The notes under the pieces: generated by a model
What the model saw: the letters and a program-made list of their open reading frames with translations, nothing else
The model's database searches: none
Told to the model about the DNA's origin: nothing
Origin: an uncultured Bacteroidota bacterium
Lineage (GTDB): Bacteria; Bacteroidota; Bacteroidia; UKL13-3
Reading direction: 5' to 3'
Assembly: GCA_903834625.1 (NCBI GenBank)
Contig: CAILJQ010000143.1
Location: 1-33,398 of the forward strand
DNA: 33,398 nt
Part shown: positions 8,131 to 24,308 of the stretch, piece after piece
How positions within the stretch are numbered: position 1 is the stretch's first letter
How the letters are laid out: each line of letters begins with the position of its first letter
Translations under genes and position numbers: made by a program

Positions 8131-10236
8131 ATGGCTCGCGATTTAAAATATACAAGAAACATAGGTATTGCTGCCCACATTGATGCGGGTAAAACAACCA
8201 CCACTGAGCGTATTCTTTATTACGCTGGTGTGAACCATAAAATTGGAGAAGTACATGATGGTGCATCTACAATGGATTGGATGGTTCAGGAAGCAGAACG
8301 TGGTATCACAATTACCTCTGCTGCAACCACTGTAGAGTGGAAATACCGCAATGAGAAATACCATATCAATATCATCGATACTCCAGGTCACGTAGATTTT
8401 ACTGTTGAGGTAAACCGTTCACTTCGCGTATTAGATGGATTGGTGTTCCTTTTCTCTGCTGTAGATGGTGTTGAACCACAATCAGAAACTAACTGGCGTT
8501 TAGCCAACAACTATAACGTTGCTCGTTTGGGTTTCGTTAATAAAATGGACCGTTCAGGTGCCGATTTCTTAAACGTGGTAAAACAAGTAAAAGAAATGTT
8601 AGGTAGCCATGCAGTTCCATTGCAATTACCTATTGGTGCTGAAGACAATTTCAAAGGAGTAGTTGATTTGATCAACTTCCGCGGAATGGTTTGGAACGAG
8701 CACGATAAAGGAATGACTTACCAAGTTATCGATATTCCTGCCGACATGATTGATGAGGCAAACGAATGGAGAGAAAAATTATTGGAAGCCGTTTCTGAGT
8801 ATGATGACAAATTGATGGAGAAATTCTTTGAAGATCCATCTTCTATCACAGAAAGAGAAATTTTGGATGCTTTGCGTAAAGCAGTTATTGATATGAAGAT
8901 TGTGCCTATGTTGTGCGGTTCTTCATTCAAAAACAAAGGTGTTCAAACCATGCTTGATTTGGTTATGGAATTACTTCCTAGCCCAATGGATAAAAAAGCA
9001 ATCGTAGGAACTCACCCTGATACTGGCGAAGAAATTACTCGTACACCTAGCGTAAACGAGCCATTCACTGCCTTAGCATTTAAAATTGCTACCGATCCTT
9101 TCGTTGGTCGTTTAGCTTTCATGCGTGCTTACTCTGGTAAATTGGATGCAGGTTCATATGTATTAAATACACGTAGCGGAAACAAAGAACGTATCTCACG
9201 TATCTTCCAAATGCACGCTAACAAACAAAATCCTATTGAAGCTCTTGAAGCTGGTGATATTGGTGCAGCAGTTGGTTTTAAAGATATCAAAACAGGGGAT
9301 ACCTTGTGTGCTGAAAAGTCACCTATTGTTTTAGAAGCTATGGATTTCCCTGATCCAGTAATTGGATTAGCTGTTGAACCAAAAACACAAGCAGATTCAG
9401 ATAAATTAGGTATGGCGCTTGCCAAACTTGCTGAAGAAGATCCTACATTCAAAGTTCATACAGACGAAGAAACTGGTCAAACAGTTATCTCTGGAATGGG
9501 TGAACTTCACTTAGAAATCATCGTTGACCGTTTGAAGCGTGAGTTCAAAGTTGAATGTAATCAGGGTGCTCCACAGGTATCATATAAAGAGACCATTACA
9601 AATGCTGTTTCACACCGCGAGGTATATAAGAAACAATCTGGTGGTCGTGGTAAGTTCGCTGATATTCAATTTGAATTGATCCCAGGATCAGCAGATAAAC
9701 CAGGTTTAGAATTTGTGAATGAAATTGTGGGTGGTTCAATTCCTAAAGAATTTATCCCTGCAGTTGAAAAAGGATTCAAACAAGCCATGCAAAATGGTGT
9801 GTTGGCCGGTTATGCAGTAGAAAGTTTGAAAGTTCGTTTGTTTGATGGTTCGTTCCATGCAGTTGACTCTGACTCATTGTCATTCGAAATTGCAGCGAAG
9901 ATTGCCTTCAAAGAGGCTTCAAGAAAAGCATCTCCAATTTTATTGGAACCAATTATGAAGATTGAAGTAATCACTCCAGAAGAAAACATGGGTGATGTAA
10001 TTGGTGACTTAAACAAAAGAAGAGGTCAACTTGAAGGAATGGATAGCAGAGCAGGCGCTCAGGTTGTAAAGGCAAAAGTTCCATTGGCAGAGATGTTTGG
10101 TTATGTTACCCAGTTGAGAACACTCTCTTCAGGTCGTGCAACCAGCTCAATGGAGTTCAGTCACTACGCCGAAGCTCCAAGAAATGTTCAAGAAGAAGTT
10201 TTAGCAAAAGTTAACGGAAAAGGCTCAAAAGCTTAA
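8131..10236 (+). CDS. fusA: Elongation factor G
   Basis: 701 aa GTPase that drives tRNA-mRNA translocation. G1 [12 protein letters not shown] (about 16-27), switch [10 protein letters not shown] (around 87), NKMD (around 141) and the [10 protein letters not shown] switch I segment are all present. Domain IV carries the [13 protein letters not shown] loop, and domain V ends with [23 protein letters not shown]. Length is standard for canonical EF-G. An SD-like AAGGA (8117-8121) lies 9 nt before the ATG. The next gene is rpsJ after 8 bp; tuf, which follows fusA in Proteobacteria, is not here. Confidence 0.98.
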
Positions 10237-10244
10237 TTAATATC

Positions 10245-10553
10245 ATGGTTAGCCAAAGAATAAGGATTAAATTAAAATCGTTCGATCACAACTTGGTAGA
10301 TAAGTCTGCCGAGAAGATTGTAAGAACTGTTAAGGCAACAGGAGCCGTTGTAAGCGGTCCCATTCCATTGCCTACTCACAAGAAGATTTACACAGTTCTG
10401 CGTTCACCGCACGTAAACAAAAAAGCGAGAGAGCAGTTCCAATTGTGCTCGTACAAAAGATTGTTAGATATTTACAGTTCAACCGCAAAAACTGTCGATG
10501 CTTTGATGAAGCTTGAATTGCCTAGCGGAGTTGATGTTGAAATTAAAGTTTGA
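10245..10553 (+). CDS. rpsJ: 30S ribosomal protein S10 (uS10)
   Basis: 102 aa, full length. Head protein of the 30S subunit and, in other bacteria, NusE partner of NusB in antitermination. Conserved [42 protein letters not shown] and the C-terminal [13 protein letters not shown] are visible. It is the only ribosomal gene in the cluster that stops with TGA, and that TGA is followed immediately in frame by TAA, a tandem stop. It opens the S10 block 8 bp after fusA. Confidence 0.98.
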
Positions 10554-10562
10554 TAAAATACT

Positions 10563-11180
10563 ATGTCAGGTTTAATAGGAAAAAAATTAGGAATGACCAG
10601 CATCTTCGATGCTAACGGGAAGCAAATACCATGCACCGTACTCGAAGTAGGCCCTTGTGTTGTTACACAAGTGAAAACATCAGAAACTGATGGGTATAGT
10701 GCTGTTCAAATAGCGTACGGAGATGCTAAAGAAAAAAACACTCCCGCTGCGTTAAATGGTATTTTCAAAAAAGCAAACACTACCTCTAAATCAAAGATGG
10801 CAGAGTTTAAAGGCTTTGAGCAAACACTTAGTGTTGGTCAGACTTTAACTGTGGATTTATTTGAAGCAGGAGAATTTGTGGATGTGGTTGGTACCAGCAA
10901 AGGAAAAGGATTCCAAGGTGTTGTGAAACGTCACAATTTCCAAGGAGTTGGAATGCAAACACACGGTCAGCACAATCGTTTACGTGCTCCGGGTTCTGTG
11001 GGTGCTTCATCTGATCCTTCAAGGGTATTCAAAGGCATGAGAATGGCTGGTAGAACCGGTGGTACTCGTGTGAAGAAAACCAATCTTGAAATATTAAAAG
11101 TTCACAAAGATCAAAACTTATTGGTTGTTAAAGGATCCGTTCCTGGCCATAAAGGTTCAATTGTATTGATAGAGAAGTAA
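10563..11180 (+). CDS. rplC: 50S ribosomal protein L3 (uL3)
   Basis: 205 aa, normal length. Early-assembly 50S protein whose long loop reaches the peptidyl transferase centre. The loop region [24 protein letters not shown] is conserved, including the Gln that is methylated in some bacteria. N-terminus [19 protein letters not shown] is typical. One base separates it from rplD, so the two are translationally linked. Confidence 0.98.
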
Positions 11181-11181
11181 C

Positions 11182-11814
11182 ATGGAATTAGCAGTATTAA
11201 ATACCAGCGGATCAGCTACAGGAAGAAAAGTTACCTTGAATGATAACATTTTTGGTATCGATCCCAATGACCACGCTATTTATTTAGACGTGAAGCAATA
11301 CCTGGCTAACCAGCGTCAGGGAACTCACTCGGCTAAGGAAAAAAGTCAGGTGAGCGGTTCAACCAAAAAGTTGCACAGACAAAAAGGTACAGGTGGATCT
11401 CGTAAAGGTTCAATTAAAACCGGTACTTTCGTAGGTGGTGCTCGTATCCACGGACCACGTCCACGTGATTACAGCTTCAAATTGAACAAGAAGTTAAAAG
11501 CTTTAGCTCGTAAGAGTGCATTAGCATACAAGGCGAAGGAGAATAATATCGCTGTGTTGGAAGTATTCAGCATGGACACTCCTAAAACCAAAAATTACTT
11601 GAGTATCCTTAGCGGATTAAATCTGAACAATAACAAAACTCTATTGGTATTGGCAGACTACAACGAGAATATCTACAAATCAGGTCGTAACCTGCCTAAA
11701 ACGAAAGTTATGGCTGCTAAAGATTTGAATACATATGATATCCTTCACGCTGACAAAGTAATTCTTGTAGAGAATTCAGTTGAAGTTATTGAGAACATTT
11801 TAAATAAGGCATAA
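11182..11814 (+). CDS. rplD: 50S ribosomal protein L4 (uL4)
   Basis: 210 aa, full length. Exit-tunnel protein; in E. coli it also represses its own operon, but no equivalent leader is visible here. The extended tunnel loop is present ([20 protein letters not shown] and [20 protein letters not shown]). Overlap with neighbours is minimal: 1 bp after rplC and 2 bp before rplW. Confidence 0.97.
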
Positions 11815-11816
11815 GA

Positions 11817-12107
11817 ATGACTATTTTAAAGAAGCCTTTAGTAACAGAGAAATTTACAGCTATCAGCGAGAAGCTGAACAAAGTAAGTTTCATCGTAGCA
11901 AAAACTGCTACCAAAACAGAGATTAAAAAAGCTGTTGAAGAAATGTATAGCGTGAATGTTACTAATGTAAACACCATGATATACGCAGGTAAATCAAAAG
12001 CCAGATTTACCAAAAGAGGATACTTCTCAGGACGTAAACCTTCTTTCAAAAAGGCTGTAGTTACATTACAAGAAGGTCAGAAAATTGACTTCTTCCAAAA
12101 TATCTAA
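11817..12107 (+). CDS. rplW: 50S ribosomal protein L23 (uL23)
   Basis: 96 aa, normal size. Lies at the tunnel exit, where it docks trigger factor and SRP. Conserved features: [20 protein letters not shown] at the N-terminus, the helix [23 protein letters not shown], and the basic loop [22 protein letters not shown]. Located 2 bp after rplD. Confidence 0.97.
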
Positions 12108-12116
12108 TCAAGAACG

Positions 12117-12947
12117 ATGGGAATCAGGAAATTTAAACCAGTTACACCGGGAACACGTTTCAGAGCTCAGAATACTTATGAAGAGCTTACACCGGACTAT
12201 AAGGTTGAGAAATCACTTATCGTGAGTTTGAAAAACTCAGGTGGTCGTAACAACTCAGGTAAAATGACCATGCGTTACATTGGTGGTGGAAGCCGCAAAT
12301 TGTATCGTGTGATTGATTTCAAACGCAACAAGTTTGGAGTTGAAGCCAAAGTTGATTCAATTCAATATGATCCAAACCGCTCTTCATTTATTGCCTTATT
12401 GGTATATACAGATGGTGAGAAAAGGTATATCTTAGCTCCAAAAGGCTTAGAAGCTGGTCAAACAGTTATCAGTGGTACAGGTATCGCTCCAGAAATTGGA
12501 AATGCACTTCCTTTAAGTGAAATTCCTCTAGGAACAACCATTCACAATATTGAAATTCATCCTGGAAAGGGTGGTCAGATGGCGAGATCAGCAGGTGCTG
12601 GTGCCCAACTTTTGAACCGTGATGGTAAATATGCTACCGTGAAAATGGTATCAGGTGAAACCCGTCAAATTCTTGCAGCTTGTTATGCAACTGTAGGTTC
12701 GGTTTCAAACCCAGACCACATGAATGAGCGTAAAGGTAAGGCCGGTGCGAATCGTTGGATTGGAAAGAGACCACGTACAAGACCAGTAGCGATGAATCCA
12801 GTAGATCACCCAATGGGTGGTGGTGAAGGTAGAGCTTCAGGTGGTCACCCACGTTCACGCAAAGGCTTGAAAGCTAAAGGATACAAAACACGTACTCCTA
12901 AAAAATATTCGAACTCATTTATCATTGAAAGTCGTAAGAAGAAATAA
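12117..12947 (+). CDS. rplB: 50S ribosomal protein L2 (uL2)
   Basis: 276 aa, full length. Essential for subunit association and the peptidyl transferase centre. The highly conserved [17 protein letters not shown] segment near the C-terminus contains the histidine region associated with activity, and [20 protein letters not shown] is also intact. Nothing unusual. Confidence 0.98.
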
Positions 12948-12953
12948 CGAGAT

Positions 12954-13220
12954 ATGGCGCGTTCATTAAAAAAAGGTCCGTTTGTAGAAGTAAAACTTGA
13001 AAAGAAAGTTTACGCTATGAACGATAGCAAAAAGAAATCGGTTATCAAAACCTGGAGTCGCAGGTCGATGATTACACCTGATTTCGTAGGTCATACTTTT
13101 GCCGTACACAATGGAAGTAAATTCATCCCTGTGTATGTAACAGAAAACATGGTAGGCCACAAGTTGGGCGAGTTCGCTCCAACCCGTACATTTAAGTCGC
13201 ATCCTGTTAAGAAAGATTAA
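12954..13220 (+). CDS. rpsS: 30S ribosomal protein S19 (uS19)
   Basis: 88 aa. Head protein that pairs with S13 near the A-site tRNA. Typical [19 protein letters not shown] start, [21 protein letters not shown] core and [17 protein letters not shown] end. 6 bp after rplB, 5 bp before rplV. Confidence 0.98.
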
Positions 13221-13225
13221 TCACA

Positions 13226-13609
13226 ATGGAAGCAGTAGCTAAATTAAATAATTGCCCAACCTCTCCGCGTAAAATGAGGTTATTGGCCGATTTGATCCGC
13301 GGTAAGCGTGTAGAAGACGCCTTCAATATCTTGGTTTTTAATGCCAAAAAAGAGAACTCTCTTCGTTTAGAGAAACTTCTTCGCTCGGCCATTGCTAACT
13401 GGGAACAAAAGAATGAAGGTGCTAGGGTAGAAGAAAGTGAGTTGTTTATTAAGACAATCTTTGTTGATGGTGGTGCAATGGTTAAGCGCATCCAACCAGC
13501 TCCTCAAGGTAGAGCTCACCGTATCCGTAAACGTTCAAACCATGTAACATTGGTTGTGGATAGCAAAGCGGCTGCCAAAGAAGTTAAAGAAACAATAGAA
13601 AACGCATAA
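13226..13609 (+). CDS. rplV: 50S ribosomal protein L22 (uL22)
   Basis: 127 aa. Its beta-hairpin lines the nascent-peptide tunnel. The hairpin-bearing C-terminal half is recognisable ([20 protein letters not shown], then [14 protein letters not shown]). N-terminal [19 protein letters not shown] is conserved. The C-terminus is extended by a short Lys/Glu-rich tail. Confidence 0.97.
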
Positions 13610-13619
13610 TATAATCAGA

Positions 13620-14411
13620 ATGGGACAAAAGGTTAACCCAATAGGTTTACGTTTAGGAATTATCAGAGGCTGGGAGTCTAACTGGTATGGAGGCAAGAAT
13701 TTTGCTGATAAACTGATCGAAGATGAGAAAATCAGAAAATATCTGAATGCACGTATTACAAAAGGTGGGATCGCTAAGATCATCATCGAGCGTACTATCA
13801 AACGTGTAATCATCACCATCCACACTTCACGTCCAGGTATCGTTATCGGTAAAGCTGGTTCTGAAGTAGATAAAATCAAAGAAGAAGTTAAAAAACTTAC
13901 CAAGAAAGAAGTTGCTATTAACATATTCGAGATAAAGCGCCCTGAACTCGATGCTACATTAGTTGGTGAGTCAATCGCTAGCCAAATTGTTGCCCGTGTT
14001 TCTTACAAGCGTGCTGTTAAAATGGCAATTGCTTCAACCATGAGAATGGGAGCTGAAGGAATTAAAGTGATGGTGTCTGGTCGTTTGGGTGGTGCTGAAA
14101 TGGCACGCTCAGAGTCTTTCAAAGAAGGCCGCACACCACTTCATACACTTCGTGCCGATATCGATTACGCAATTTCTGAAGCCTTAACTGTATACGGTAA
14201 AATAGGTGTGAAAGTGTGGATTTGTAAAGGTGAAGTTTATGGAAAACGTGATCTTTCTCCAAACTTAGGTTTCAACAATCCTAATGAAAAGGCCGGCGGA
14301 CCAAGTGGTCGTCCTGACAGAAGAGGTGGAGACAGAAGAGACGGTGGAAATCGCGGTGGGGAGAGAAGAGACGGTGGAAACCGTGGTGGTGGAGATAGAA
14401 GAAGAAAATAA
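13620..14411 (+). CDS. rpsC: 30S ribosomal protein S3 (uS3) with Gly/Arg-rich tail
   Basis: 263 aa, longer than the ~230 aa of E. coli S3. Lies at the mRNA entry tunnel. Standard N-terminus [22 protein letters not shown] domain with [20 protein letters not shown], and conserved [19 protein letters not shown] and [12 protein letters not shown]. The extra length is a C-terminal tail of about 40 residues made of [18 protein letters not shown]-type repeats, encoded by a 30-bp tandem DNA repeat (14331-14390). The tail should be disordered and RNA-binding in character; its role is unknown. Confidence 0.97.
14331..14390 (+). repeat. 30-bp tandem duplication in the 3' end of rpsC
   Basis: Two adjacent 30-bp units (14331-14360 and 14361-14390) differ at about four positions and keep the reading frame, each encoding a ten-residue [11 protein letters not shown] unit. 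A partial unit precedes them at 14316-14330. Confidence 0.85.
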
Positions 14412-14443
14412 TTTATTGTTCGAAAGCTAAATAAACTGTAGAA

Positions 14444-14863
14444 ATGTTACAGCCAAAAAAGACCAAATATAGGAAACAACAGAAAGGAAGAGTCAGAGGT
14501 AATGCCACTCGTGGTTATACCGTATCATTCGGCTCTTTTGGTTTGAAAGCCCTGGATACTTGTTTCCTTACATCCAAGCAATTGGAAGCAGCCCGTGTGG
14601 CACTGAATCGTTTCATGAAACGTGAAGGTCAAGTATGGATCCGCGTGTTTCCTGATAAACCAATGACTCGTAAGCCTGCAGAGGTGAGGATGGGTAAAGG
14701 AAAGGGAGCGCCTGAATTTTGGGTAGCCCGTTGCCGCCCAGGTACCATCATCTTTGAAGCAGACGGTGTACCAATGGCAGTTGCTCAAGAAGCCATGAGG
14801 TTAGCTTCTCAGAAGTTGCCTGTTATTACAAAATTTGTTGTTAAACCTGAATATAGCGAATAA
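14444..14863 (+). CDS. rplP: 50S ribosomal protein L16 (uL16)
   Basis: 139 aa, full length. Organises the A-site region of the 50S subunit. [20 protein letters not shown] start, [22 protein letters not shown], and [20 protein letters not shown] are conserved. A 32-bp gap separates it from rpsC, larger than most in this block; no promoter was found in the gap. Confidence 0.98.
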
Positions 14864-14865
14864 GA

Positions 14866-15066
14866 ATGAAAAACTCAGAAATCAAGGAATTGTCTAATAA
14901 GGAATTAGCAGCCAGGATCAGAGAAGAGAGAGCCGGTTTAACCAAGATGGTTTTGAATCACGCTGTTTCTCCAGTAGAGAATCCAAATATTATTAAAGAA
15001 AACAAGAGGTTGATTGCTCGTTTGTTAACTGAACAAAGAAGCCGTCAATTGACAAACGTTCAATAA
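14866..15066 (+). CDS. rpmC: 50S ribosomal protein L29 (uL29)
   Basis: 66 aa, typical size. Two-helix protein near the tunnel exit, next to L23. Starts [20 protein letters not shown] and has the expected [20 protein letters not shown] segment. 2 bp after rplP. Confidence 0.95.
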
Positions 15067-15076
15067 AACATTGAAT

Positions 15077-15346
15077 ATGGAAAACACAATCGAAGAAAGA
15101 AACTCAAGAAAAGTCATCATTGGCAAGGTAGTGAGCAATAAAATGCAAAAAACTATCGTGGTTGCCGTTGAACGTAAAGTAATGCACCCTAAATACGGTA
15201 AGTTCATTAAGATGACCTCTAAGTTTAAAGCTCATGACGAAAAGGGTGAATGCGGTATGAATGATATCGTAAAAGTAATGGAAACTCGTCCGCTGAGTAA
15301 AGACAAGCGTTGGAGATTAGTAGAAATCATTGAAAAAGCAAAATAA
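15077..15346 (+). CDS. rpsQ: 30S ribosomal protein S17 (uS17)
   Basis: 89 aa from ATG 15077. A TTG two codons upstream (15071) is also in frame, but the ATG gives the normal N-terminus. Binds 16S rRNA helix 11 early in assembly. Conserved [37 protein letters not shown] and [20 protein letters not shown]. Confidence 0.97.
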
Positions 15347-15348
15347 CG

Positions 15349-15717
15349 ATGATACAACAAGAAAGTAGACTAAAAGTAGCTGATAACAGCGGTGCAAAAG
15401 AAGTTCTTTGCATTCGTGTGCTAGGTGGTACCGCCAGACGTTACGCTTCTGTAGGCGATAAAATTGTAGTAAGTGTGAAATCAGCACTTCCTTCAGGTAC
15501 CGTTAAAAAAGGTGCCGTTTCCAAAGCTGTTGTGGTTAGAACCAAAAAAGAGGTTCGCAGAGCAGATGGATCATATATCCGTTTCGACGACAACTCATGT
15601 GTGCTTTTGAACGCACAAGATGAGCCTCGTGCAACCCGTATCTTCGGACCGGTTGCCCGTGAGTTGAGGGAAAAACAGTTCATGAAGATTGTTTCATTAG
15701 CACCGGAGGTATTATAA
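15349..15717 (+). CDS. rplN: 50S ribosomal protein L14 (uL14)
   Basis: 122 aa, full length. Forms inter-subunit bridges with 16S r[23 protein letters not shown] start and [27 protein letters not shown]-type motif and [16 protein letters not shown] end are all conserved. Its last codons contain a GGAGGT that can act as a Shine-Dalgarno site for rplX. Confidence 0.98.
15705..15710 (+). promoter_or_regulatory. Strong SD-like site before rplX
   Basis: GGAGGT, 9 nt before the rplX ATG. It overlaps the Pro-Glu-Val codons at the end of rplN, so its presence may be partly coding constraint. Confidence 0.45.
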
Positions 15718-15719
15718 TC

Positions 15720-16058
15720 ATGGAAAGAAAATTTAACAATCAGGCTAAGCGCCATGTAAAAAAAGGTGACATGGTTCAGGTGATTGCCGGTGACGACAAA
15801 GGAAAAAAAGGTCGTGTAGTGGAAATCATTTCTGAAACAGAAAGAGCCATTGTGGAAGGTATTAACATCGTTAGCCGCCACACAAAGCCAAATGCACAAA
15901 ACCAGAACGGTGGAATTATTAAAAAAGAAGCACCTGTTCATATCTCCAACTTAAAGGTTGTTGATAAATCAGGTAACGCTACCAGAGTTGGACGTAAAGC
16001 CAACGATAAAGGAAAATTGGTTCGCGTTTCTAAAAAGTCTGGTGAAATTATCGATTAA
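15720..16058 (+). CDS. rplX: 50S ribosomal protein L24 (uL24)
   Basis: 112 aa, normal length. Assembly initiator near the tunnel exit. The KOW motif is clear ([20 protein letters not shown], about residues 16-35), followed by [21 protein letters not shown] and the typical [18 protein letters not shown]. Starts 2 bp after rplN. Confidence 0.97.
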
Positions 16059-16062
16059 GGAG
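16057..16062 (+). promoter_or_regulatory. SD-like site before rplE
   Basis: AAGGAG with a 7-nt spacer to the rplE ATG at 16070, outside coding sequence except for the rplX stop codon. Well formed for a phylum in which such sites are uncommon. Confidence 0.6.
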
Positions 16063-16069
16063 AATTTGT

Positions 16070-16618
16070 ATGTATACGCCAAGATTAAAAGAAAAATATT
16101 CAAAGCAAATTGTTCCTGCCATGCAGGAGAAGTTTGGCTATAAAAATAGCATGATGGTGCCAAAGTTGTTGAAGATATGCATCAACCAAGGTATCGGACA
16201 AGCAGTAGCTGATAAGAAACTTATCGACCAAGCCATTGAAGAACTTACCATGATTGCTGGTCAAAAAGCAGTAGGTACTCGTTCTAAAAAGGATATCTCT
16301 AACTTTAAATTGAGAAAAAATGTACCTATTGGTACTCGCGTAACCTTACGTGGCGAAAGAATGTATGAATTCTTAGATCGTTTGATCTCTGTTTCATTAC
16401 CTCGTGTTCGCGATTTTCAAGGTTTAAAACTTAAAGGTTTCGATGGTCGTGGTAACTACAACATGGGTATTACTGAGCAAATCATTTTCCCTGAAATTGT
16501 AATGGAAAAAGTAAACCGTATCAATGGTATGGATATCTCAATCGTTACAACTGCAACAAATGATGAGCAATGTTTAGAGTTGTTGAAAGAGTTTGGTTTC
16601 CCATTTAAAAAAGCGTAA
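16070..16618 (+). CDS. rplE: 50S ribosomal protein L5 (uL5)
   Basis: 182 aa, full length. Binds 5S rRNA and the P-site tRNA. Contains [38 protein letters not shown] and [20 protein letters not shown], with the usual [20 protein letters not shown] end. Preceded by an AAGGAG site. In E. coli the S8 repressor acts at this gene's start; no matching structure was recognised here. Confidence 0.98.
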
Positions 16619-16628
16619 TTAAATTAAA

Positions 16629-16898
16629 ATGGCAAAAGAGTCAATAAAAGCACGTCAACGCAAAAGAGAAAGAATGGTAGCACAATATGCTGCCAAGCGT
16701 GAAGCTTTAAAAAAGGCCGGTGATGCAGCAGGTTTGCAAAAACTTCCTCGTAACGCTTCTCCGGTTCGTTTGAAAAACCGCTGTAAATTAACCGGTCGTC
16801 CTAAAGGTTATATGAAGGACTTCGGTATTTGCCGTAACCAGTTCAGAGAGCTTGCCCTTATGGGTAAAATCCCAGGCGTAACCAAAGCTAGCTGGTAA
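16629..16898 (+). CDS. rpsN: 30S ribosomal protein S14 (uS14), zinc-independent long form
   Basis: 89 aa. The long (C-minus) form lacks the CxxC zinc pairs of the 61-aa form; the C-terminal half reads [20 protein letters not shown] and [21 protein letters not shown]. Located in the head of the 30S subunit. It is followed by a 126-bp gap with an internal promoter and structured leader before rpsH. Confidence 0.97.
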
Positions 16899-16910
16899 TT
16901 TAAGAAAAAT

Positions 16911-16941
16911 TTGGTAAGGGATGCGAGTTATTGTATATTCG
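16911..16941 (+). promoter_or_regulatory. Internal promoter ahead of rpsH
   Basis: TTG (16911-16913), exactly 20-nt spacer, TATATTCG (16934-16941; one mismatch to TAnnTTTG), then CAGCCCTTT. Same spacing and same start-region motif as the promoters before rpsL. It would drive rpsH through secY independently of the upstream genes. Confidence 0.6.
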
Positions 16942-16971
16942 CAGCCCTTTAATTTTATAACAAAGCACTTA

Positions 16972-17006
16972 GTCGGTAAGAGTAAAAGCCTTGGCTAACT
17001 ACCGAC
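16972..17006 (+). promoter_or_regulatory. Hairpin in the rpsH leader
   Basis: Perfect 7-bp arms GTCGGTA (16972-16978) and TACCGAC (17000-17006) enclose 21 nt that contain a nested AGCC/GGCT pair (16987-16990 and 16993-16996). It ends 18 nt before the rpsH ATG. No T-run follows, so it is not a terminator. It is a candidate for a ribosomal-protein-binding leader. Confidence 0.5.
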
Positions 17007-17024
17007 AAGTATAATTAACAACAT

Positions 17025-17423
17025 ATGACAGATCCAATATCAGATTTTTTAACCAGGCTTCGCAACGCGATCAAGGCAAATCATCGTATTGTAGAAGTTC
17101 CCTCCTCCAAATTAAAAAAGGAGATTACAAGGGTTCTTTTCGAAAAAGGTTACATCTTAAACTATAAGTTTGAGGATGTTGCAAACCATCAAGGAACCAT
17201 CAAAATTGCGTTGAAGTACCATCCGGTAACTAAAACTTCCGCTATCAAAAATTTAGAAAGAATCAGCCGTCCAGGTTTGAGAAGGTACACAGGTGTTGAA
17301 ACCATGCCAAGAGTAATCAATGGTATGGGTATCGCTATTGTTACCACTTCTAAAGGTGTAATGACCGACAAAGAAGCTCGTAACCAAAATGTAGGTGGTG
17401 AAGTATTGTGTTACGTGTATTAA
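17025..17423 (+). CDS. rpsH: 30S ribosomal protein S8 (uS8)
   Basis: 132 aa, full length. Binds the central domain of 16S rRNA; in E. coli S8 is also the translational repressor of the spc operon. MTDPISDFLTRLRNAIKANH start, the RISRPGLRRYTGVETMPRVI segment and the C-terminal GGEVLCYVY are conserved. First gene after the internal promoter; its leader carries a hairpin. Confidence 0.98.
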   Translation: MTDPISDFLTRLRNAIKANHRIVEVPSSKLKKEITRVLFEKGYILNYKFEDVANHQGTIKIALKYHPVTKTSAIKNLERISRPGLRRYTGVETMPRVINGMGIAIVTTSKGVMTDKEARNQNVGGEVLCYVY

Positions 17424-17432
17424 TCAATAGAT

Positions 17433-17437
17433 AGGAG
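17433..17437 (+). promoter_or_regulatory. SD-like site before rplF
   Basis: AGGAG in the 21-bp gap, 7-nt spacer to ATG 17445. Entirely non-coding and with the same spacing as the site before rplE. Confidence 0.55.
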
Positions 17438-17444
17438 AAAAATT

Positions 17445-17999
17445 ATGTCACGTATAGGAAAAGCACTTATAAAACTACCAGCAGGTGTTGATGTGAAAGT
17501 ATCAAACAGCAACGTAGTAACCGTAAAAGGACCTAAAGGAGAATTAACACAGCAATTAGATGCTGATATTACCTTAGAAGTAGTTGATGGTAACATTCAA
17601 TTAAATCGCCCTACAGAGCAAAAGCGCCACAAAGCTTTACATGGTTTGTACCGTTCATTAGTTAACAATATGGTAACTGGTGTAACTCAAGGATACAAAA
17701 CACGTCAAGAATTGGTGGGTGTGGGTTTTAAGGCAACCAACGAAGGAAATATCTTAGATCTTACATTAGGATATTCTCACCATATCTACTTTGAAATTCC
17801 TAAAGAACTGTCAGTGAAAACTGAACAGGATAAAGGTAAAAATCCAATCATCACGTTAGAAGGAATTGATAAGCAGTTAATCGGTCAGGTTGCTGCGAAA
17901 ATCCGCTCATTGCGTGCACCTGAACCATATAAAGGTAAAGGTATCAAGTTTGAAGGTGAAACATTAAGAAGAAAAGCAGGTAAAACTGCTTCTAAATAA
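17445..17999 (+). CDS. rplF: 50S ribosomal protein L6 (uL6)
   Basis: 184 aa, two tandem alpha-beta domains as expected. Sits near the factor-binding site. MSRIGKALIKLPAGVDVKVS start, HGLYRSLVNNMVTGVTQGY, LVGVGFKAT and the C-terminal signature APEPYKGKGIKFEGETLRRK are conserved. Confidence 0.98.
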   Translation: MSRIGKALIKLPAGVDVKVSNSNVVTVKGPKGELTQQLDADITLEVVDGNIQLNRPTEQKRHKALHGLYRSLVNNMVTGVTQGYKTRQELVGVGFKATNEGNILDLTLGYSHHIYFEIPKELSVKTEQDKGKNPIITLEGIDKQLIGQVAAKIRSLRAPEPYKGKGIKFEGETLRRKAGKTASK

Positions 18000-18008
18000 A
18001 ATTGAGCC

Positions 18009-18353
18009 ATGTTTAGTAAAGAATCCAGAAGAAATAAAATTCGTGCCCGTATTCGCAGCCGCGTAACCGGTACAGCTCAAAAACCCCGTTTGTCGGTATT
18101 TAGGAGCAATAAATTTATCTATGCCCAGCTTATTGATGACGTGAATGGTAAAACATTGGTTGCTACTTCATCAAGAGCATTGACCGAAAAGGTTGCCAAA
18201 GTTGATTCATCATCATTGGTTGGAAAAACCCTCGCAGAAAAAGCTATCGCTGCTGGTATCACTGAAGTGGTATTCGACAGAGGTGGTTACCTTTACCATG
18301 GTCGTGTGAAAGCATTGGCAGATGGTGCGCGTGAAGGTGGTCTTAAATTTTAA
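18009..18353 (+). CDS. rplR: 50S ribosomal protein L18 (uL18)
   Basis: 114 aa. 5S rRNA-binding protein. Basic N-terminus [20 protein letters not shown], then [40 protein letters not shown], and the C-terminal [21 protein letters not shown] with the universal [12 protein letters not shown] motif. Confidence 0.98.
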
Positions 18354-18373
18354 TCATTCAGAAAAAGAGAAGT

Positions 18374-18895
18374 ATGTCAACAGCAAACATAAAAAAGGTT
18401 AAAACAACTGATATCGAATTAAAAGAGAAAGTTGTATCCATTAACCGTGTAGCTAAAGTAACCAAAGGTGGTAGAACTTTTAGTTTCTCTGCCCTGGTTG
18501 TGGTAGGCGATGGAAATGGTATCGTAGGATATGGTTTGGGTAAATCCTTAGAGGTTACAGATGCCATCTCTAAAGGTGTGGATGATGCTAAGAAAAACTT
18601 AGTAAAGGTTCCAGTTCTTAAAGGTACTGTACCACACGAACAATTAGGTAAATACGGTGGCGGTCGTGTATTCCTTAAACCTGCAGCTCATGGTACTGGT
18701 GTAATTGCCGGTGGTGCAATGCGTGCAGTTCTTGAGAGTGCCGGTGTTACAGACGTATTGGCAAAATCAAAAGGTTCTTCTAATCCACACAACGTGGTAA
18801 AAGCTACCATCAATGCATTGTTAGAAATGCGTGATGCTTTCACAGTAGCTCAACAAAGAGGAATTAGTTTAAAGAGAGTATTTAACGGAGAATAA
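18374..18895 (+). CDS. rpsE: 30S ribosomal protein S5 (uS5)
   Basis: 173 aa. Lies at the mRNA entry channel and affects decoding fidelity. The dsRNA-binding-like N-terminal domain has [20 protein letters not shown] and [15 protein letters not shown]. The C-terminal domain carries [21 protein letters not shown] and [20 protein letters not shown]. Normal in length and composition. Confidence 0.98.
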
Positions 18896-18900
18896 GCACG

Positions 18901-19080
18901 ATGGAAAAATATAAAATCACTCAGGTTAAAAGTACCATCGACAGAACCGAAGACCAAAAGCGCACCGTGCGTGCCCTTGGTTTTACCAAATTAAATCAGA
19001 GCAAAGAGGTGGTAGGTACGCCACAAATTATGGGTATGATCCATAAAGTTGCTCATTTGTTAAAAGTAGAAAAAATCTAA
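18901..19080 (+). CDS. rpmD: 50S ribosomal protein L30 (uL30)
   Basis: 59 aa from ATG 18901 to TAA 19078. Small 50S protein: MEKYKITQVKSTIDRTEDQK, then RTVRALGFTKLNQSKEVVGTP, and a C-terminal helix ending KVAHLLKVEKI. Position between rpsE and rplO and length match the family exactly. 5 bp after rpsE, 12 bp before rplO. Confidence 0.96.
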   Translation: MEKYKITQVKSTIDRTEDQKRTVRALGFTKLNQSKEVVGTPQIMGMIHKVAHLLKVEKI

Positions 19081-19092
19081 TTAGGACCAGCG

Positions 19093-19539
19093 ATGAAATT
19101 ACATACATTAAAACCTGCAAGTGGCTCAACCCACAGAGAAGGTAAAAGAGTTGGTAGGGGAGAAGGTTCAGGTAAAGGCGGTACAGCTGCACGTGGACAC
19201 AAAGGAGCAGGTTCCAGAAGTGGTACTAGCACCAAGCGTGGTTTTGAAGGTGGTCAAATGCCTTTATACCGTCGTATCCCTAAATTTGGTTTCAAAAATT
19301 TGAACCGTGTTGAATACGCTCCAATCAATTTAGATAAGTTACAAGAGTTAGCTGATGCCGGTATTACTAAAGTGAATGCTGAAGTTTTAAGAGCTAATGG
19401 ACTTATTGGAAAGAAAGACCTAGTGAAAATATTAGGTCGTGGAGAGTTAAAAGCTGCCATGGAAGTACAAGCTGATAAATACTCAGCTGCTGCCCAGAAA
19501 GCAATTGAAGCAGTTGGTGGATCAATAGTAAATAACTAA
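19093..19539 (+). CDS. rplO: 50S ribosomal protein L15 (uL15)
   Basis: 148 aa. Late 50S assembly protein. Gly/Arg/Lys-rich extended N-terminus (KPASGSTHREGKRVGRGEGS, then GKGGTAARGHKGAGSRSG), MPLYRRIPKFGFKN, and a globular C-terminal domain. 27 bp precede secY. Confidence 0.97.
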   Translation: MKLHTLKPASGSTHREGKRVGRGEGSGKGGTAARGHKGAGSRSGTSTKRGFEGGQMPLYRRIPKFGFKNLNRVEYAPINLDKLQELADAGITKVNAEVLRANGLIGKKDLVKILGRGELKAAMEVQADKYSAAAQKAIEAVGGSIVNN

Positions 19540-19566
19540 TACTAACCTTTAATACTTCCAAAACAG

Positions 19567-20928
19567 GTGAAGAAATTAATATCAACATTTCAAAACATTT
19601 TCAGAATAGAAGAACTGAGGTACAAACTCATGGTCACTTTCTGGATGCTATTGGCATACCGCTTGGGTACATACGTTACCCTACCGGGTGTTGACCCTAA
19701 CATGCTTCAGGGTTCTGCGCAACAGGCAGATGGAGGTATCTTTGGTTTGATAAACATGTTCGCAGGTGGAGCTTTCGCAAGGGGATCTATCTTCGCATTA
19801 GGTATCATGCCTTATATCTCAGCTTCCATTGTTGTGCAATTGTTGAGTTTGGCCGTTCCTTCCTTTCAGAAAATGCAAAAAGAAGGTGAAGAAGGTCGTA
19901 GGAAGATTAACCAAATTACCCGTTACCTCACTATCGTGATTACTGCGGTTCAATCTATTGGTTTCTTGATCAACTTAAAATCTGAAAATCCTGCTGCTAT
20001 CATTTCTATCACCAATCCTGCTGCTATGTCTGATTTTGTTTTCATGCTTAGCTCAGTAATCATTCTTACCTCAAGTACCATGTTCGTTATGTGGTTGGGT
20101 GAGCGTATAACTGAAAAAGGAATTGGAAATGGAATCTCTTTGATTATTATGATTGGTATCATCGCTCGCTTGCCTTTGGCATTGAAAGATGAATTCTATT
20201 TCAAATTGTCTGAAAGTGGTGGTGGTTTGGTTATATTCTTAATTGAATTGGCTGCATTGTTCGCTGTAATTATGGTTACTATTCTCTTGGTGCAAGGAAC
20301 TCGAAAAATTCCAGTTCAGTATGCAAAAAGAGTTGTTGGAAACCGTCAATACGGAGGCGTTCGCCAATATATACCTCTAAAAGTGAATGCTGCTGGTGTT
20401 ATGCCTATCATCTTTGCACAGGCATTGATGTTTATTCCTTCAACCATTGCACAGTTCTTCCCGAACTATGAAGCAATGCAAGGAGTATTAGGTGCTTTTA
20501 TTAACCCAATGGGTTGGACATACAACATCACCTTTGGTTTATTGATTATTCTGTTTACTTATTTCTATACAGCTATTTCGGTTAATGCAAATCAGATTGC
20601 AGATGACATGAAACGTAATGGAGGATTCATCCCTGGCGTAAAACCAGGTAAATCAACCGCCGATTTCATTGATAACGTGATGTCGAGAATTACACTCCCA
20701 GGAGCGATTTTCTTAGCATTCGTCGCAATTCTGCCATCATTGGCCAATGTATTAAACATCAACAGCCAATTTGCTCAGTTTTATGGCGGTACTTCCCTTC
20801 TCATTTTGGTGGGTGTAGTACTCGATACATTGCAGCAGGTTGAAAGTCACTTGATGATGAGACATTACGATGGTTTGATGAAATCGGGCAGAATAAAGGG
20901 TAGGAATGCGGTTGGAGCAGCGCTTTAA
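19567..20928 (+). CDS. secY: Preprotein translocase subunit SecY
   Basis: 453 aa inner-membrane protein, the pore of the Sec channel. Start is GTG 19567, giving MKKLISTFQNIFRIEELRYK, the usual N-terminus; the first ATG inside would cut the first helix. Ten hydrophobic segments are expected and the sequence is consistent with this. Conserved RLGTYVTLPGVDP-type TM1 region with a periplasmic plug (GGIFGLINMFAGGAFARGSI), the cytoplasmic loop QGTRKIPVQYAKRVVGNRQY and FIPGVKPGKSTADFID. Supplies the first step of export for both T9SS proteins in this window. No map or adk follows. Confidence 0.98.
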   Translation: MKKLISTFQNIFRIEELRYKLMVTFWMLLAYRLGTYVTLPGVDPNMLQGSAQQADGGIFGLINMFAGGAFARGSIFALGIMPYISASIVVQLLSLAVPSFQKMQKEGEEGRRKINQITRYLTIVITAVQSIGFLINLKSENPAAIISITNPAAMSDFVFMLSSVIILTSSTMFVMWLGERITEKGIGNGISLIIMIGIIARLPLALKDEFYFKLSESGGGLVIFLIELAALFAVIMVTILLVQGTRKIPVQYAKRVVGNRQYGGVRQYIPLKVNAAGVMPIIFAQALMFIPSTIAQFFPNYEAMQGVLGAFINPMGWTYNITFGLLIILFTYFYTAISVNANQIADDMKRNGGFIPGVKPGKSTADFIDNVMSRITLPGAIFLAFVAILPSLANVLNINSQFAQFYGGTSLLILVGVVLDTLQQVESHLMMRHYDGLMKSGRIKGRNAVGAAL

Positions 20929-20940
20929 TTTTTAAAATCG

Positions 20941-20970
20941 TTGACTTTAATAAAAAATAACGTATTTTTG
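20941..20970 (+). promoter_or_regulatory. Internal promoter ahead of infA
   Basis: TTG (20941-20943), 19-nt spacer, TATTTTTG (20963-20970): full TAnnTTTG match, followed by CTGCCCTTTT. Located in the 61-bp secY-infA gap and 19 bp before the infA ATG, giving a very short leader. It would drive infA through rplQ. Confidence 0.72.
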
Positions 20971-20989
20971 CTGCCCTTTTGCGGATAAT

Positions 20990-21208
20990 ATGCCAAAACA
21001 GTCGTTAATAAAACAAGACGGTACAATAACAGAATCGCTAAGTAATGCGATGTTTAGGGTGCAGTTGGAAAATGGGCACGAGGTGATTGCCCATATCTCT
21101 GGAAAAATGAGGATGCATTATATTAAGATCCTTCCAGGTGATAAAGTGTCGATAGAAATGTCGCCATATGACCTATCAAAAGGTAGAATTATTTACAGAT
21201 ACAAGTAA
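20990..21208 (+). CDS. infA: Translation initiation factor IF-1
   Basis: 72 aa single OB-fold protein that binds the 30S A site during initiation. The core is near-invariant ([55 protein letters not shown]). It follows its own promoter. In some Bacteroidota map lies between secY and infA; it is absent here. Confidence 0.98.
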
Positions 21209-21219
21209 CAACTGGTAAA

Positions 21220-21336
21220 ATGAAGATCAGAGCATCGGTAAAAAAGCGCAGTGAAGACTGCATTATTGTGAAGCGTAAAGGTAGGGTTTACGTTATTAAC
21301 AAAAAGAACCCTAAGTTTAAACAACGTCAAGGATAA
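21220..21336 (+). CDS. rpmJ: 50S ribosomal protein L36 (bL36), zinc-free form
   Basis: 38 aa. Starts [20 protein letters not shown] and ends NPKFKQRQG, as expected. The zinc-binding set of canonical L36 (Cys11, Cys14, Cys27, His32) is reduced to a single Cys at 14; the others are Ser, Asn and Lys. It should therefore not bind zinc. Located 11 bp after infA and 9 bp before rpsM. Confidence 0.96.
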
Positions 21337-21345
21337 TACAAGAAT

Positions 21346-21723
21346 ATGGCTCGTATAGCAGGTATAGATTTACCCAAAAACAAAAGAGGAGAAATAGGTT
21401 TGACCTATATCTTCGGAATTGGACGCTCAAAAGCTCAAGCAATCCTCACTGAATGCGGTGTAGATTATGACAAGAAAGTGAACGATTGGAACGATGAGGA
21501 ATTGAACGCCATCCGTAAGTATGTAACCGAGAAAATCACTGTAGAAGGTGAACTTCGTTCGGAACGTCAATTGAATATTAAGCGTTTGATGGACATCGGT
21601 TGCTACCGTGGACTTCGTCACCGTAAAGGTTTGCCGCTTCGTGGTCAACGCACCCGTACCAACTCACGTACCCGTAAAGGTAAACGTAAGACAGTTGCAG
21701 GCAAGAAAAAAGTAACTAAGTAA
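21346..21723 (+). CDS. rpsM: 30S ribosomal protein S13 (uS13)
   Basis: 125 aa. Head protein contacting tRNA and the 50S subunit (bridges B1a/b). [20 protein letters not shown] start, helix-two-turn-helix with [34 protein letters not shown] and the basic tail [16 protein letters not shown] are conserved. Confidence 0.98.
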
Positions 21724-21740
21724 TCATTAATCAGAGAATA

Positions 21741-22133
21741 ATGGCCAGGGATAATAAGAAAGTTACAAAGAAGAGAGTTGTTAGCATAGATGCTCACGGG
21801 CAAGCTCACATCAAAGCTTCTTTCAACAATGTGATCATCTCCATTACCAATCAGACAGGTCAGGTAGTATCCTGGGCTTCTGCGGGTAAAATGGGTTTCA
21901 GAGGATCTAAGAAAAATACGCCATATGCTGCTCAAATGGCTTCAGCCGATTGTGCTAAAGTTGCAGTAGATGCAGGTATGAAAAAAGTAGATGTGTTCAT
22001 CAAAGGACCAGGTTCAGGTAGAGATTCTGCTATCAGAACTTTGCAAGCCAGTGGTTTAGAAGTATTGTCTATTACAGACATTACCCCATTGCCACACAAT
22101 GGATGCCGTCCTCCAAAAGCACGTAGGGTATAA
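21741..22133 (+). CDS. rpsK: 30S ribosomal protein S11 (uS11)
   Basis: 130 aa. Platform protein near the mRNA exit and the Shine-Dalgarno helix. Basic N-terminus, then [56 protein letters not shown] and the C-terminal [16 protein letters not shown], all standard. Confidence 0.98.
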
Positions 22134-22151
22134 TTAATAACAAGAAGAGTA

Positions 22152-22760
22152 ATGGCAAGATATATAGGACCAAAAACCAAAATCGCCAGACGTTTCAAGG
22201 ATCCAATCTTTGGACCTGATAAGTCTTACGAGAAAAGGCAAACCCCTCCGGGACAGCATGGCGCTTCTCGTAAAAGGGCTAAATTAACTGAATACGCCAT
22301 TCAGTTGTACGAAAAACAAAAAGCAAAATACACTTACGGTGTTCTAGAGCGTCAGTTTTTCAAAACTTTTGAATTAGCTGCCCGTAAAAAAGGTATCACA
22401 GGTGAAAACTTGTTGAAATTCCTTGAGGCACGTTTAGATAATACTGTTTACCGCTTAGGTTTGGCTCAAACACGTAGTCAAGCTCGTCAATTGGTTGCTC
22501 ACGGGCACATCAATGTTAATGGTAAACTAGTGAATATCCCTTCATTCCAATTGAAACCTGGAGATGTTGTGGCTGTTCGCGAAAAATCAAAATCATTGGA
22601 AGTGATCACAGGTTCAGTTTCTTCAAGTAATCCTAAGAAATTTAACTGGTTGAACTTTGAGATGAAAGATATGACCGGAACGTTTATGGCTTACCCTGAA
22701 CGCGACCAAATACCTGAAAATATCAAAGAACAACTGATCGTAGAATTGTATTCGAAATAA
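22152..22760 (+). CDS. rpsD: 30S ribosomal protein S4 (uS4)
   Basis: 202 aa. Primary 16S-binding protein of the body of the 30S subunit. [20 protein letters not shown] start without the N-terminal zinc cysteines (C-minus form), [20 protein letters not shown], and an S4-type RNA-binding domain ([38 protein letters not shown]). Standard member of the alpha block. Confidence 0.98.
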
Positions 22761-22781
22761 TCATTTTAAAAAGAACCATCA

Positions 22782-23774
22782 ATGGGTATCCTTGCATTCC
22801 AAAAACCAGATAAAGTTATCATGCACAAAGACACTGAGTTCTTTGGGCAATTCGAATTCCGTCCGCTTGAAAAAGGCTATGGAGTTACTATTGGAAATTC
22901 ACTCAGAAGGATCTTATTATCTTCGCTTGAAGGTTACGCAATTACTTCCGTTAAATTTACTGGTGTTGAACACGAGTTCTCAACCATCAAAGGAGTAATT
23001 GAAGATGTTACTGAAATCATCATGAACCTTAAACAGGTTCGCTTCAAGCGAATCGTTGATGGTATCGATAACGAAAAAATCTATATCAATATCAAAGGTC
23101 AAGAGCAATTCTTAGCTGGTGAAATTGGCAAACATACCAACTCTTTCAGAGTGCTAAACCCTGATTTAGTTATCTGTAACATGGAGCCATTTGTCCATTT
23201 AGAAGTTGAACTTACAGTTGACAAAGGTCGTGGTTATGTACCTGCCGATGAAAACAAGCCTAAAGATGCTGCTATTGGAGTAATTGCTATGGATTCTATC
23301 TACACACCAATAAAAAACGTTAAATATAGCGTTGAAGATTACCGTGTAGAGCAAAAAACAGATTACGAAAAACTTCTTATTGAGATTCAAACAGATGGTT
23401 CTATCCATCCTGAAGAAGCTTTGAAAGAAGCTGCTAAAATTCTCATCCAACATTTTATGTTGTTCTCTGATGAATTAATTACCCTCGATACGCAAGTAAA
23501 AGAACCAACCCAAGAAGTTGACGAAAATTACTTACACGTTCGCAAAATCCTTAAAACTCCGCTTTCAGACCTAGATCTTTCAGTTAGAGCATACAACTGC
23601 CTAAAAGCAGCTGATATCAAATCATTGGCTGATTTAGTTTCTTACGATATTGCTGACTTATTGAAGTTCCGTAATTTTGGTAAGAAATCATTAAGCGAAT
23701 TGGAAGAATTGGTGCGCGATAAAGGGTTAACTTTTGGTATCGACATCAGCAAATACAAATTGGATCAGGAATAA
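22782..23774 (+). CDS. rpoA: RNA polymerase alpha subunit
   Basis: 330 aa, normal length. The NTD (1 to ~235) dimerises and assembles beta and beta' ([39 protein letters not shown]). A flexible linker follows, then the CTD (about 255-320) with [20 protein letters not shown], and [16 protein letters not shown], which carries the DNA- and activator-binding residues including the Arg equivalent to E. coli R265. 54 bp precede rplQ, a larger gap than most in the cluster. Confidence 0.98.
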
Positions 23775-23780
23775 TAGAAT

Positions 23781-23812
23781 TGAAGATACGGAAGCTGCCC
23801 TTGGCATCTTCA
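23781..23812 (+). promoter_or_regulatory. Inverted repeat in the rpoA-rplQ gap
   Basis: Perfect 7-bp arms TGAAGAT (23781-23787) and ATCTTCA (23806-23812) around an 18-nt loop containing GCTGCCCTT, the same nine bases that follow the infA -7 box. No T-run, so not a terminator. Possible RNA processing or regulatory site; function unknown. Confidence 0.35.
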
Positions 23813-23828
23813 CATACGAAAAAGAAAA

Positions 23829-24308
23829 ATGAGACACGGAAAAACATTTAATCACTTAGGAAGAAACGCTTCACACAGAAAAGCTTTATTAGCTAACATG
23901 GCTACTTCGCTTATCATACACAAGCGTATCTCTACTACCGTTGCAAAAGCGAAAGAATTGCGCAAATACGTTGAGCCTCTTATAAGCAAAGCTAAAGATG
24001 ATAGCACCCACTCACGTCGTGTAGTGTTCAGCTATTTGAAAAATAAAGAGTCTATCAAAGAATTGTTTGGACCAGTTGCTGGTAAAGTTGCTGACAGACC
24101 GGGTGGTTATACCCGTATCTTAAAGTTAATGAACCGTAAAGGTGACAACGCCGAAATGGCTATCATCGAATTGGTTGATTTCAATGAAAACTTATTGAAA
24201 GACAATTCTGCTAAAGCAGGTGCTGCTAAGAAAACACGTCGTGGACGTGCTCCTAAAGCAAAAGCTGAAGCTACTGAAACTGCTACAAGCAACGAAGAAA
24301 CTAACTAA
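23829..24308 (+). CDS. rplQ: 50S ribosomal protein L17 (bL17)
   Basis: 159 aa. [20 protein letters not shown] start and the [20 protein letters not shown] motif identify it. The core ends near residue 122 and is followed by an Ala/Lys/Glu/Thr-rich tail of about 35 residues, longer than in E. coli and likely disordered. Last gene of the cluster; a strong terminator begins 22 nt downstream. Confidence 0.98.

Follow-up and report, generated by a model that had tools for sequence, protein, structure and literature searches.

A putative S8-binding leader with a 16S helix 21-like core upstream of rpsH in an uncultured Bacteroidota bacterium

The stretch of DNA analyzed here (the window, 33,398 nucleotides from an uncultured Bacteroidota bacterium) is a Bacteroidota ribosomal protein cluster. 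According to the open reading frames, a gap of 126 bp separates rpsH, starting at 17025, from a gene ending at 16898 that was named rpsN from a reading of its translation. A phmmer search of the window's S8 against solved S8 chains gave a whole-length match, with a best E value of 2.6e-57, and the list includes the sequence common to entry 1s03; by this comparison, the S8 protein is an ordinary one. When the sequence was re-read, the elements that an earlier sequence-only reading had described in the gap were found in their places: TTG at 16911-16913, CAGCCC at 16942-16947, and the stem arms GTCGGTA (16972-16978) and TACCGAC (17000-17006), the second of which stops 18 nt short of the rpsH ATG, as that reading had counted. 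The features are collected in Table 1.

Table 1. Features in and around the rpsN-rpsH gap of the window
Feature	Position	Strand	Basis or conservation
rpsN (S14), upstream gene	16629..16898	+	ORF
Promoter: -33 TTTG (16910-16913), -7 TATATTCG (16934-16941)	16910..16941	+	sequence, relatives, published consensus
Inverted repeat AAGGG-A-TGCGAGT ... ATTCGCA-G-CCCTT, then TTAATTTT-like T-rich stretch	16916..16949	+	folding
Whole putative S8 leader hairpin, made up of basal ACUU/AAGU, bulged A16971, outer stem, core, inner AGU/GCU, and loop	16967..17010	+	alignment, covariation
Outer stem of leader hairpin	16972-16977/17001-17006	+	
Core 5' side, equivalents of A595 A596 G597	16978..16980	+	AAG invariant, 31/31
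AGU, 5' strand of inner helix (598-600); partner GCU at 16994-16996	16981..16983	+	RNAalifold
Core 3' side, equivalents of A641 A642 C643 U644	16997..17000	+	ACU invariant, 31/31; 641 A or U
A/U-rich 18-nt spacer to the start codon (AAGTATAATTAACAACAT)	17007..17024	+	sequence
rpsH (ribosomal protein S8), presumed ligand and first regulated gene	17025..17423	+	ORF, phmmer

Of 60 relatives, 54 yielded an S8 gene, and the region upstream of each was read. To these came further S8 loci with organism names (80 of 523), some of which belong to the same genomes as the 54. A pattern for the leader seen in the window, here called type 1, matches L002 to L028 and L056 to L080 and none of the other loci listed. 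We aligned 31 distinct type-1 sequences, the window included, with MAFFT (alignment A2). The sequence-only reading had proposed a covariance analysis of the gap, and compensatory change in the arms of the leader proved strong: 50 pair cells have changed on both sides with pairing kept, against 12.7 ± 3.9 in shuffles, none of 500 of which reached this number. Paired cells make up 92.3%, compared with 20.6 to 52.7% when the partner is slid by one to three columns, and the covariation score is 0.347 versus 0.170 after shuffling. Further pair types in A2 are no more frequent than in shuffles (17 versus 17.1), and 47 of 500 shuffles attain the seven pairs that show change on both sides.

Judged only by its folding energy, the leader hairpin is unremarkable (z of -1.61; 15 of 200 shuffles do equally well), so it is conservation, not folding energy, that places it above chance. 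The hairpin sequence GTCGGTAAGAGTAAAAGCCTTGGCTAACTACCGAC at 16972-17006 does not recur in the window when up to three mismatches are allowed. Beneath the bulged A lies a basal extension of 4 bp (ACUU at 16967-16970 with AAGU at 17007-17010), in which column pair 7-46 covaries (20 UA, 5 CG, 2 AU, 1 UG, and 3 unpaired). RNAalifold, unaided, returned the outer stem together with an AGU/GCU inner helix; the G-C at columns 19-34 of this helix occurs in all 31 sequences. While the 7-bp stem of the sequence-only reading is present, the AGCC/GGCT pair it had nested inside is probably not the conserved pairing. That pair is a local alternative in most members and is impossible in the divergent L023 and L074; because AGU/GCU is the only one of the two that can form there, we prefer it.

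The internal loop of helix 21 in 16S rRNA has seven conserved nucleotides, and its core is described as the base triple A595-(A596-U644), the pair G597-C643 with 641, and the invariant A642 (cited passages of PMC4176348). A comparison of the folded leader with helix 21 found all seven core nucleotides in the leader, in the same order and with the same adjacency to the outer helix: the core strands directly adjoin the outer stem, the 5' strand after it and the 3' strand before it, which is the strand order of the rRNA. The equivalent of A642 is A16998 (31/31), and that of G597-C643 is G16980-C16999 (31/31), with A or U at 641. As far as sequence alone can tell, the triple reads A, A-U in 31/31 type-1 leaders and A, G-C in 22/22 leaders of a second type (below). 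Since 596-644 and 597-643 never vary in type 1, the core pairing there is argued from the analogy with rRNA and from the type-2 swap to G-C. The 598-640 pair is A-U in 30 of the 31 type-1 leaders; C598 breaks it in one genome, listed both as L014 and as L062. The 594-645 pair is U-A, U-G, or nonstandard among relatives, being standard in 20/31 and not in 11/31.

As the helix 21 reference, we used the relative UKL13-3 (L079, G060), in which the helix reads UAAGUC...GAAACUG with the same core; the descriptor match in its 16S rRNA falls exactly at position 595 (E. coli numbering, counted from the 515-533 primer site). A search for 16S rRNA in the window's own genome (G000), and likewise in G003 and G015, gave no match. 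The leader differs from helix 21 in having A-U instead of U-A at 598-640 and U-A instead of U-G at 594-645, in its short inner helix and different loop, and in being part of an mRNA. Covariation and core match together argue strongly for the S8-responsive leader at rpsH that the sequence-only reading had suspected, and two marks of a ribosomal protein leader were found: a covarying structure upstream of a ribosomal protein gene and a likeness to the rRNA site of that protein. In a comparison with the E. coli protein by eye, the Tyr in RRYTG and the Thr-Ser in VTTSKG of the window's S8 look equivalent to core-touching E. coli residues. The E. coli S8 residues that touch the core are named in the part of PMC4176348 cited here.

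For specificity, we used a descriptor that joins the core to two inner pairs and requires 4 bp or more in the outer stem. It matches 77 of 134 rpsH-upstream regions (50 type 1, 24 type 2, and 3 type 3), genomes in both collections being counted twice. In the controls, it matches 15 of 2,680 shuffles (0.6%) and 12 of 1,314 downstream tiles. Its misses include L014/L062, with C598, and L100, with an outer-stem mismatch, which by eye lie within the two families. Elsewhere in the window, the descriptor has three matches on the plus strand, two of them inside ribosomal protein genes, and two on the minus strand, all taken as chance.

A model of type 1 (R1) gave a single match in each of 45 genomes among the 64 from the order. 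On the window, R1 matches 16964-17013 with an E value of 1.8e-16, the window itself being among the 31 sequences from which the model was built. Placement was checked for 36 of the 45 matched genomes: rpsH starts 9 to 12 nt past the match in 30/30 loci and, according to coordinates, 10 to 17 nt past it in six more genomes (G018, G022, G028, G030, G034, and G036), so that the hairpin stands at a nearly fixed distance from the rpsH start. No R1 match was found in the remaining 19/64 genomes of the order, near-complete ones among them and six of 14 genera entirely, and the element is therefore dispensable or replaced in part of the order. In a phylum sample, R1 matched 1 of 395 genomes, namely, the window's own, which suggests that type 1 does not extend beyond its order.

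The sequence-only reading had also placed an internal promoter in the gap, and its sequence is of the Bacteroidota type. In the parts of the publications cited here, the primary sigma factor of a flavobacterium is reported to recognize TAnnTTTG at -12 to -5 (PMC9723704), and Bacteroides fragilis promoters combine TTTG near -33 with TAnnTTTG (PMC7366714). The window has both elements of such a sigma-A promoter, the -33 TTTG and the -7 TAnnTTTG, in the form TTTG-20-TATATTCG, with 20 nt between TTG and the box and a single difference from the published consensus, C for T (TTCG). With the box placed at -12 to -5 and hence ending at -5, the predicted transcript start falls at about 16946, the figure given in the earlier reading. 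Among the 31 distinct type-1 relatives, 29 have a -7 match of the form TANNTT[TC]G that lies 78 to 87 nt upstream of rpsH. L023 and L074, with short gaps of 85 and 78 nt, lack the -7 match and keep the leader hairpin. The mRNA of rpsH would start at what looks like a promoter of its own. The same box with CAGCC recurs at other places in the genome; at two of the loci fetched (L203 and L207), it stands shortly before an ATG.

An inverted repeat spans the -7 box. It folds with -16.1 kcal/mol (z of -3.47; 0 of 200 shuffles as good), and a hairpin across the box, counted where 6 or more downstream nucleotides pair with the upstream arm, occurs in 29/29 promoter-bearing relatives, with a mean z of -3.4, or -2.9 when the upstream arm alone is shuffled. 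The repeat is weak in L062 and L076 (z about -0.5), and in L027 and L028 its arms differ in sequence (GGCGC/GCGCC) and still pair. RNAalifold found no consensus pairs for the repeat at alignment level, probably owing to arm positions that differ from clade to clade (L027, L028, and L077). We used per-sequence energies instead, which show a hairpin and are weaker evidence than covariation; because alignment-level folding gave nothing, we treat the repeat as a lead. The predicted transcript start falls within its 3' arm, so an RNA hairpin would form in read-through transcripts only. The repeat may serve the upstream genes as a terminator, or it may act as an insulator or as an operator in the DNA. 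The terminator scan did not list it. In L085, L099, L104, and L105, the spacer between -33 and -7, GGATAATATAAATTGTTATATATC, is nearly palindromic, as in the window promoter.

A second type of leader lies directly before rpsH in Mucilaginibacter, Pedobacter, Arcticibacter, Olivibacter, and relatives (Sphingobacteriaceae-type), with the sequence CCGAUAG-[A/C]-AGGUC ... GGA[A/U]ACC-A-CUAUC or close variants; it was seen in L088, L092, L093, L097, L098, and others up to L135. Across 22 distinct rows, A595, G596-C644, G597-C643, U598-A640, C599-G639, and A642 do not vary, while covariation is seen in the outer stem (both-side change in 13 cells, reached by 0/500 shuffles; 99.5% paired). RNAalifold alone pairs U598 with A642 instead of A640 and places C599 one column off, so the S8-like inner register of type 2 rests on the rRNA analogy. 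A model of type 2 (R2) matched 9 of 395 genomes in the phylum, all of one family, and 87 of 121 genomes sampled from that family, and rpsH comes right after the match in 33/33 fetched loci. A second R2 match in G524 (E value of 0.0096) is probably false. Type 2 shares with the window's leader the core, the position before rpsH, and, by eye in several loci, a Bacteroidota-type promoter-like stretch upstream; it differs from type 1 in G596-C644, U598-A640, C599-G639, the loop, and the outer stem. As R1 and R2 miss each other's members in the phylum sample, the two types possibly have separate origins.

In L039, L085, L099, L104, L105, L211, and L212, we observed a third type, an S8-core hairpin roughly 90 to 150 nt before rpsH (UAUC-A-AGGUC..GAAACC-A-GAUA or close variants, with U595 in L085 and L099). 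The hairpin sits between rpsN and the rpsH promoter, and a terminator-like hairpin (GCAGCCCG..CGGGCUUGC-UUUUU) lies past the promoter, a layout that looks like an attenuator arrangement. A model built from five type-3 sequences (R3) gave five matches in 395 genomes, three of them before rpsH; the two without S8 in the fetched locus were taken as false.

In E. coli, the target of S8 is the start of rplE, from where control extends through lost translational coupling and retroregulation (cited part of PMC10931766); the spc site imitates helix 21 with A642, G597-C643, and the A595-(A596-U644) triple (cited part of PMC4176348). S8 as the presumed repressor and imitation of helix 21 are common to the E. 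coli site and the window's leader. The E. coli site, however, is at the start of the third operon gene (the rplX-rplE junction), whereas the leader of the window belongs to rpsH, behind its own promoter. Moreover, the published triple A+80-(A+81-U+11) (cited part of PMC4176348) means that the E. coli strands are swapped relative to the rRNA, with A642 at +9 and A595 at +80 of rplE, while the leader keeps the 16S rRNA order. A swapped-strand descriptor finds the E. coli K-12 site as its single match in 4 kb and finds nothing in the window at 15600-16300 (rplE) or 16800-17100 (rpsH). Its three matches at 10000-24000 in a stricter form and 11 across the window in a looser form, none of them at rplE or rpsH, were rejected as E. 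coli-like permuted sites. The view of the sequence-only reading that S8 control at rpsH would be a different solution from that at rplE agrees with the rRNA strand order and with the lack of a match to an E. coli-type operator at rplE or rpsH. On this evidence, the leader would work like the E. coli operator, and it is outside that operator family.

No description of an S8 leader at rpsH was found in open-licence literature, and a prior description elsewhere is possible. The cited portions of Eckert and Weinberg 2020 (PMC7247131) list 20 new leaders, none for S8 or rpsH; those of the Bacteroidota, from the same phylum as the window and likewise found by covariation, are for L13 and S4 in Bacteroidia and for S4, S15, and S16 in Flavobacteria. 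The cited passages of PMC11109978 and PMC2704228 mention no leader at rpsH. Rfam 15 gave no match at gathering score on the window and the gap, nor on L088, L118, L079, L029, and L085; matches to mir-355 and SNORD30 fell below the gathering score and were taken as chance.

The computation shows a conserved hairpin that covaries, matches the core, and stands before rpsH, and it shows the promoter match; from these results we infer that S8 binds, where transcription starts, that translation is blocked, and how far downstream the effect reaches. It is very probable that the gap combines an internal promoter with an S8-binding autoregulatory leader that blocks rpsH initiation, through which S8 in surplus probably switches off its own synthesis. 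RNA polymerase would start near 16946, upstream of the leader, and the transcript would fold so that its internal loop copies the helix 21 core (A595-A596-G597 / N641-A642-C643-U644, with 594-645 below and 598-640 above). S8 in excess of free 16S rRNA would bind this hairpin, the edge of which is 18 nt from the rpsH start codon, and the bound protein would keep the 30S subunit off the rpsH start, so that expression of rpsH would be turned down together with that of the genes translationally linked to it downstream (from rplF on). Bacteroidota initiate without Shine-Dalgarno pairing (cited part of PMC10931766), which makes it plausible that access near the start codon is blocked rather than a Shine-Dalgarno sequence masked, and S8 bound at this distance should hinder 30S loading.

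It is unlikely that S8 binds the leader and acts on mRNA stability or transcription (processing or termination) instead of on 30S loading. A transcriptional step is conceivable because an inverted repeat with a T-rich stretch spans the promoter and because the third lineage has an S8-core hairpin before a terminator-like hairpin (GCAGCCCG..CGGGCTTGC-TTTTTT) upstream of rpsH. In the window, however, AAGTATAATTAACAACAT and no terminator-like hairpin follows the S8 hairpin after 17006, the scan listed no plus-strand terminator in 15000-19000, and the short distance to the start codon is nearly fixed in relatives. S8 binding is predicted here from the sequence, and the type-1 loop GCCUUGG is also largely conserved, which S8 recognition does not explain; a hairpin that serves another ribosomal or RNA-binding protein, or a generic mRNA-stabilizing 5' hairpin, is nevertheless quite improbable, as two families of distinct sequence each carry the full core in an rRNA-like register immediately ahead of the S8 gene. 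An ordinary intergenic hairpin or upstream-gene terminator that matches helix 21 by chance would fit the unexceptional fold energy and the frequency of terminators between operon segments, but it is already disfavored, to the point of being hardly credible, by compensatory change around an invariant core, by the rate of descriptor matches against that in shuffles, and by the strict placement before rpsH.

Autoregulation of rpsH by an S8-binding leader would provide a concrete, short element for the balance of spc in Bacteroidota, with point predictions (A642 and G597-C643) and an rRNA-like strand order at a different gene than in E. coli. According to the cited part of a 2024 review (PMC10931766), the regulation of spc, the longest ribosomal protein operon, and how balance is kept there are unknown outside the gamma-proteobacteria, and its phylogeny is not advanced. 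As a bolder reading, rather less likely than not, we put forward that S8 control in the Bacteroidota passed from rplE to rpsH on more than one occasion: two or perhaps three leaders, if not more, would have converged on the rRNA core without being related, one of them before a promoter beside a terminator-like hairpin. The family of the window would then be under double control, with the inverted repeat ending or blocking read-through from rplE-rpsN, which would make the rpsH segment a separate S8-controlled transcription unit. Sequence-distinct mimics of one site form a natural series and offer material on how RNA-protein control arises.

Other hairpins were seen in the gap. In other families of the class (L029, L030, L034, and L049), the gap has a different hairpin, for example UUAUCCCGCGUGCGGGAUAA, in which pairs change between genomes and no clear S8 core was found. 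In L032, L033, L035, and L036, from genera of the same family as the window without type 1, GAAAGU...AACUC hairpins stand just before rpsH; these are possibly a degenerate or rearranged S8 core, in which the unpaired nucleotides are distributed differently between the strands.
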